Shown piece by piece: positions 23,359-53,258 of a stretch of 64,000 nt of DNA. The translations under genes and the position numbers were made by a program. Each line of letters opens with the position of its first letter. Within the stretch, counting starts at the first letter, position 1. The stretch covers positions 72,766,001-72,830,000 of the forward strand of contig NC_088920.1 of NCBI RefSeq assembly GCF_038396675.1. The letters are read 5' to 3'. Below the pieces are notes generated by a model that worked only from the letters and a program-made list of their open reading frames with translations, ran no database searches and was not told the DNA's origin. This DNA comes from Hydra vulgaris. Taxonomy: Eukaryota; Cnidaria; Hydrozoa; Anthoathecata; Hydridae.

Positions 23359-23634
23359 TTAATTCTTTTTATACATTGACTTCAATTTAATTATTTGTTC
23401 TTCGATTCTTGATAACTCTTCAAAGAAATTATCTGTTGATTTTTTCTCCTCGTCTTTATTACCGTTTAAAATCACACTCAAAGAAACATCTTTGCTACAT
23501 CTTTTCTTGTACACAAACTGAACAACATCTTTCATAGAAATTGCAAAAAGTACGGATAAAGTGACTATTCCTGGAATAAGCAAGTTACTCGTTTTTAAAC
23601 ATTCATACAGGTTTTGTGGGCTCTCGATATCTAT
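23359..23634 (-). CDS. Channel gene exon 8: M4 and cytoplasmic tail, stop
   Basis: Acceptor TTAATTTTAG precedes 23634; phase 0. The 91 codons give [17 protein letters not shown], then helix M4 [17 protein letters not shown] (about 417-433, continuing to VVQFVY), then a basic KKRC boundary and an acidic/basic tail ending LKSMYKKN before TAA. The short LIEEQI-type heptad near the end could be a small coiled coil. No canonical AATAAA was spotted just downstream; an ATTAAA lies about 200 bases beyond the stop. Confidence 0.78.
   Translation of the reverse strand: MDIESPQNLYECLKTSNLLIPGIVTLSVLFAISMKDVVQFVYKKRCSKDVSLSVILNGNKDEEKKSTDNFFEELSRIEEQIIKLKSMYKKN

Positions 23635-53258: not shown

Follow-up and report, generated by a model that had tools for sequence, protein, structure and literature searches.

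A candidate ligand-gated channel with a potassium filter signature and its gene family in Hydra vulgaris

Among bacterial ionotropic glutamate receptors, GluR0 of Synechocystis is described as having no M4 helix in the available part of PMC11479355, and bacterial GluR0 relatives with a potassium filter are classed as Group 1 in the accessible text of a survey from 2010, whose authors found a binding site combined with a potassium filter only in bacteria, as far as they could determine (PMC2950845). In animals, the rotifer Adineta vaga encodes AvGluR1, a receptor with both M4 and a potassium filter according to excerpts of PMC11479355 and PMC12332018, and within the partly available texts that our literature search returned this rotifer protein was the sole potassium-selective animal receptor. 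Cnidarian ionotropic glutamate receptors are considered cation-selective and excitatory in the available portion of PMC13335744. No family of the kind described here was reported from a cnidarian in this search, the coverage of which was partial, with most subscription papers and bioRxiv missing.

We analysed a window of 64,000 nucleotides from Hydra vulgaris (C1:72766001-72830000; gene coordinates are given in window numbering) and searched one genome assembly of 911.5 Mb in 15 contigs. A first-pass annotation had placed a gene on the minus strand of this window, with a start codon ATG at 53258 and a stop codon at 23359, and both ends and the strand were confirmed. It had further assembled eight exons into a protein of 490 residues. 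These pieces do join, but two of them are very probably false, and the best gene model has six minus-strand exons encoding 468 residues. The channel gene is real, and the eight-exon model needs correction as follows:

52716 to 53258, minus strand, exon 1, 543 nt: ATG, hydrophobic leader, the whole of S1, and M1 up to LLWLA; donor GTAAGT
44801 to 44892, minus strand, exon 2, 92 nt: M1-pore linker, pore helix and TLTTVG
37556 to 37703, minus strand, exon 3, 148 nt: YGDIVP, M2 and the start of S2
30263 to 30329, minus strand, exon 4, 67 nt: S2; joins 29156 in phase
30119 to 30165, minus strand, exon 5 of the eight-exon model: very probably no exon; the frame needs none, and L107 has an extra base
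29347 to 29365, minus strand, 19-base exon 6 of the eight-exon model: very probably no exon; weak acceptor, and the frame needs none
28876 to 29156, minus strand, exon 5 of the corrected model (exon 7 of the eight-exon model), 281 nt: S2 core
23359 to 23634, minus strand, exon 6 of the corrected model (exon 8 of the eight-exon model), 276 nt: end of S2, M4, cytoplasmic tail and stop

All six exons of the corrected model are open and have GT-AG sites. A direct in-phase join is possible because exon 4 finishes in phase 1 and the next exon of the corrected model, at 29156, opens with two bases. In the eight-exon model, exon 5 ends in phase 0, which does not fit the two leading bases of the solid exon 29156-28876, and this clash is why the model contained a 19-base exon whose acceptor is poor. 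Retaining both exons produced a 22-residue insert that was absent in all ten aligned intronless paralogs, against which the five exon junctions of the 468-residue protein were all gap-free within 8 residues (this alignment used 10 of 13 intronless loci and omitted a near-copy, an identical copy and a further locus). The tandem paralog L107 (C1:72656000-72665500), some 130 kb away from the window gene, showed one extra base within the counterpart of false exon 5 (30165-30119), and its counterpart of false exon 6 (29365-29347) retained the sequence but had lost the donor site. Both exons were rejected on account of the direct in-phase join of exon 4, the missing insert in the paralogs and the differences in L107; an extended version of exon 5 of the eight-exon model was built as well and discarded. 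The intron around the false exons is also well kept in L107, because this copy is young.

The genome search showed a stretch resembling exon 2 at C1:72576592-72576744, and three paralogous exons (L105, L114, L115) begin with YGD as exon 3 does. Exon 4 is identical to that of L107 in 62 of 67 bases, and exon 5 of the corrected model has protein-level matches in L107, L111, L112, L113 and L114. The L107 copy of exon 4 contains an in-frame stop, and given this stop L107 may be a relic. At the other end of the window gene, the sequence TTTTTTTAG, 18 bases upstream of the ATG at 53258, is a possible 3' splice site, and the gene may therefore begin with an untranslated exon.

The order of segments had been given at first reading as leader, S1, M1, pore, M2, S2 and M4, and it was borne out. 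The 468-residue protein is composed as follows (468-residue numbering), with TLTTVGYGDIVP in the pore:

residues about 1 to 27: hydrophobic leader
residues 28 to 146: S1
residues 156 to 182: M1
residues 198 to 216: pore
residues 220 to 250: M2
residues 251 to 394: S2
residues 395 to 415: M4
residues 416 to 468: tail

The same layout recurred elsewhere in the genome. A search with the 490-residue protein gave 85 matches, some of which were plain potassium channels, and a second search with one intronless frame from among these matches yielded 13 full-length intronless paralogs with no internal stops, among them an ORF at C3:17476674-17477951. Hydropathy and motifs showed the order S1-M1-P-M2-S2 and an M4-like helix in the window protein and in all 13 paralogs, each intronless ORF reading S1 motif, M1, pore, M2, roughly 140 residues and then M4. 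A leader-like hydrophobic start was called in 12 of the 13, while the leader of the window protein has a hydropathy of 1.43, just under the threshold of 1.5; an extra hydropathy segment inside S2 was called in the window protein and in L090. The absence of an amino-terminal domain, likewise part of the first-pass annotation, was confirmed in the intronless paralogs, since the open frame starts only 26-70 residues ahead of the S1 motif in 13 of 13 and leaves no room for such a domain. Upstream of the window gene, no amino-terminal domain was matched among 10 scanned of 42 open segments. Cysteines 67 in S1 and 356 in S2 are invariant in all 11 aligned members and possibly form a disulfide special to the family. 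Glycosylation sequons, considered as evidence for topology, showed no excess, and structure predictions of two single exons were of low confidence (pLDDT 38 and 45).

GluR0 and its bacterial relatives thus share with the window protein the S1-M1-P-M2-S2 order, the TTVGYGD motif and the lack of an amino-terminal domain. Unlike GluR0, which has no M4, the window protein has M4 and a tail, and unlike the GluR0 group as a whole the Hydra family is animal and multi-gene and does not conserve the canonical acid of the binding site. AvGluR1, compared by its description in partly available sources, is like the window protein an animal receptor with M4 and the potassium signature.

The family is large, partly tandem and partly intronless. 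Twelve copies of exon 1 were present in the genome (that of the window, eight on C1 at 68.9-69.7 Mb, one on C12 and two inverted copies on C6), and together with the 13 intronless loci they give a family of at least 25 loci. For exon 1 of the window gene, identity is 42-51% with the copies on C1 and C12 and about 90% with those on C6, which lie in opposite orientation at C6:59555352-59555903 (minus strand) and C6:59574263-59574814 (plus strand). The intronless proteins are just 19-26% identical to the window protein. Values of dN/dS were 0.14-0.56 over 11 comparisons, several of them with dS above 1 and therefore rough: exon 1 gave 0.38 when compared with the close C6 copy and 0.32-0.44 with four other copies, the S2 exon gave 0.56 against L107, and five intronless pairs gave 0.14-0.42. 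The members of a sixth pair, L103 and L104, are identical intronless copies located about 3.4 kb apart (C3:18602347-18603486 and C3:18605761-18606900), which reflects either a recent duplication or an assembly artefact.

We consider it likely that the window gene encodes one 468-residue subunit of a tetrameric, potassium-passing ligand-gated channel, which has the layout of an ionotropic glutamate receptor without the amino-terminal domain and is one member of this large family. The receptor architecture is suggested by the segment order, by a family-profile match that starts at the end of S1 and extends into S2, and by Lig_chan, which passes its cut-off in the window member alone of the three compared. 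S1 and S2 would fold into an extracellular clamshell, M1, an inverted pore loop with TTVGYGD and M2 would line up as the potassium pore, and M4 would serve as a membrane anchor. A small ligand that binds in the clamshell would close it and pull M2 open, and potassium leaving through the open pore would hyperpolarise the cell.

The pore of the window gene reads VTLTTVGYGDIVP, in agreement with the full potassium signature first annotated, and GYGD is present in the window protein and in 13 of 13 intronless ORFs. The TxVGYG filter is common to the window protein and the family, with two identical copies reading TTIGYGD, and by this motif the pore is of the potassium type. The first-pass annotation had proposed profile searches with Ion_trans_2, Lig_chan and SBP_bac_3, and the first two of these Pfam profiles each matched all 11 members scanned at E up to 0.01, whereas SBP_bac_3 matched none of the 11 at E 0.01. 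In the window protein Ion_trans_2 was found with E 2e-14 and Lig_chan (PF00060) with 32.2-32.4 bits, above the curated cut-off of 30.8; among the three members compared, the two others remained under this cut-off with 25.6 and 20.5 bits. With Lig_chan, scores of 17.5 bits at most were obtained for seven ordinary potassium channels (one represented by a 76-residue segment), and four of the seven had no match at E 0.1.

A pore of this kind might also belong to an ordinary Kv-like S5-P-S6 potassium channel that acquired unrelated extracellular segments and a third helix and has no ligand-gated clamshell. Kv and 2TM potassium channels do share the pore helix, TVGYGD and M2 with the window protein, and Ion_trans_2 scored above Lig_chan in each protein of this genome for which bits were compared, while the reverse was seen in two bacterial receptors. 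The pore tree, to which two ordinary receptors from the same genome had been added as animal receptors, leaned the same way and placed the family beside potassium channels with support of 90/91, which is not firm, and one member, L103, within the Kv group; a topology that unites all receptors in one clade was not rejected (p 0.164). When the family profile was searched against the PDB, the best 60 of 352 matches were potassium channels, over the M1-pore-M2 span only. M1 with its linker scored 15.2 bits with a receptor profile and 13.7 with a profile of two animal Kv channels and was at first a promising discriminator between receptors and channels, but it was not decisive once KCNQ4 was included, which carries a similar stretch at the end of M1.

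Further comparisons were made with a bacterial receptor profile, for which 62 loci were reduced to 41 by a length and motif filter and to 26 by thinning. The transmembrane block of the window protein scored 69.7 bits with this profile, compared with 28-50 for six bacterial potassium channels, and it scored 72.3 with a profile of four GYG receptors versus 66.3 with one of eight potassium channels. In a BLAST search of the 490-residue model against 67 bacterial proteins, the two best matches were L044 and L042, both GYG receptors, with alignments that cover the pore and reach into S2; the S2 portion of this result includes residues of the false exons. These pore comparisons indicate potassium but leave the descent of the pore unsettled. 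Unlike Kv and 2TM channels, the window protein has its pore between two large hydrophilic segments, with a third helix after them. We regard the Kv-like alternative as unlikely, as the window protein has no voltage sensor, the segment order recurs in 13 intronless paralogs, ordinary potassium channels score low with Lig_chan, and the family profiles of S1 and of S2 fit the lobes of bacterial receptors better than shuffled or reversed controls do.

The 11-row family profile matched the 26 bacterial receptors, a set without GluR0 itself, with a probability of 99.6%; the match spans 180 columns, beginning at the end of S1, crossing the pore and reaching into S2, and the pore supplies most of the score. 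The S1 profile alone scored 21.9 over 17 columns and the S2 profile alone 25.3 over 28 columns, with maxima of 17.1 and 15.1, respectively, among 60 column shuffles each, and reversed S1 and S2 profiles scored 9.6-13.4. The S2 motif scored 28.1 against the bacterial S1 lobe, slightly above its score against the S2 lobe, so that its register is ambiguous and the motif is a general one of these lobes. For the single window sequence, S1 showed no similarity to bacterial S1, shuffles being as good in 93 of 120, 80 of 150 and 49 of 100 cases. S2 was matched by none of 120 shuffles, and with cruder methods by 39 of 150 and 7 of 100; these S2 results, obtained with the 490-residue model, lose weight because residues of the false exons were included. 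Weak Pfam matches of S2 in that model to Phosphonate-bd (E 0.004-0.034) and PDT (E 0.04-0.11) were discarded, being absent at E 0.01 with the 468-residue model. Lig_chan-Glu_bd, like SBP_bac_3, matched none of the 11 members at E 0.01, in contrast to two bacterial relatives tested, which have recognisable ligand-binding domains and matched both profiles (SBP_bac_3 with 90.7 and 91 bits). A PDB search with S1 and S2 alone returned nothing meaningful.

The closest receptors in the collections searched were bacterial, and together with the 13 intronless members this might suggest that the family was acquired by transfer from bacteria with GYG receptors and not from an animal ancestor. We find this improbable. 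Identities to the bacterial receptors in the BLAST list were 24-36%, the pore tree does not resolve, the M4 helix of the family is missing from GluR0 (PMC11479355, available part), and the collections contained no animals, so that they say little about descent.

Which ligand might open the channel was considered from the residues of the lobes. In the accessible text of PMC6307864, Arg485 and the acid at 705 are the key residues for binding the amino-acid backbone. Where bacterial receptors have the amino-group-binding acid, all 11 aligned members of the Hydra family carry N or K, and no invariant arginine was found in S1 among these 11, where the Arg position is not alignable with certainty. 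The lobes would therefore not hold an amino acid in the standard way, although they probably do form a clamshell, as the profile matches suggest, and the ligand is presumably not a plain amino acid held as usual. An inhibitory receptor gated by glutamate or another amino acid has a precedent in AvGluR1, which selects for potassium and opens in response to glutamate as well as other amino acids (excerpts of PMC12226733 and PMC11479355), and a shifted acid is conceivable since an aspartate two residues past the usual position is kept in 10 of 11 members. With the usual acid replaced in all 11 aligned members of the Hydra family, whereas AvGluR1 binds amino acids (PMC12226733, available part), we consider this quite improbable. 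The layout and potassium signature of the first-pass name, glutamate-receptor-like channel, thus stand, while a glutamate response and the term glutamate-gated are not supported by these residues.

That the window copy is a non-functional relic of the family is very unlikely given its open exons with GT-AG sites and the exon 1 dN/dS values below 1, even though it lies among transposons and contains long introns, the nearby L107 has a stop in exon 4, and its S2 reads LLN where 10 aligned paralogs have (A/T)AW.

Insect chemosensory ionotropic receptors (IRs) have divergent ligand-binding residues and no amino-terminal domain, and they show lineage-specific expansion with intronless copies. The Hydra family shares all of these features with them, while insect IRs are, to our knowledge, without the potassium signature. 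Single-exon IRs are mentioned in the available part of PMC2924276, and in the same text no IRs were found in Cnidaria. As a tentative suggestion, a large, lineage-expanded family of potassium-passing receptors without the usual amino-acid binding might represent hyperpolarising chemoreceptors, a separately evolved inhibitory counterpart of the insect IRs. In an animal with such a family, chemicals from outside may quiet cells and not excite them. With at least 25 loci, Hydra might also offer a tractable animal in which to study ligand-gated potassium inhibition, the origin of the receptor pore and how filters switch between the potassium and mixed-cation types.

A second class of GYG receptors, with the motif GYGD(I/R)(S/A)P, was found on C6 and C13 (L121, L122, L110, L123, L131, L132), at the following positions:

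C6:27073906-27074127
C6:27170744-27170968
C13:41319281
C13:41351519
C13:50580057

On C13, these loci encode a pore, M2, an S2-like stretch with SYYGV and M4 in a single frame of 363-365 residues.

The window also contains transposon remains, comprising four RVT_1 reverse transcriptase ORFs, a hAT C-terminal region and a 359-residue transposase-like ORF with a weak helix-turn-helix match only:

7393 to 7830, plus strand: transposon remains
13686 to 14609, plus strand: transposon remains
14915 to 15565, plus strand: transposon remains
42492 to 43232, plus strand: transposon remains
47705 to 48898, minus strand: transposon remains
61345 to 62421, minus strand: transposon remains

A 65-residue frame at 54745-54939 on the minus strand matches Pfam FragX_IP (CYFIP) with E 0.014, below the cut-off, and is possibly an exon of another gene.
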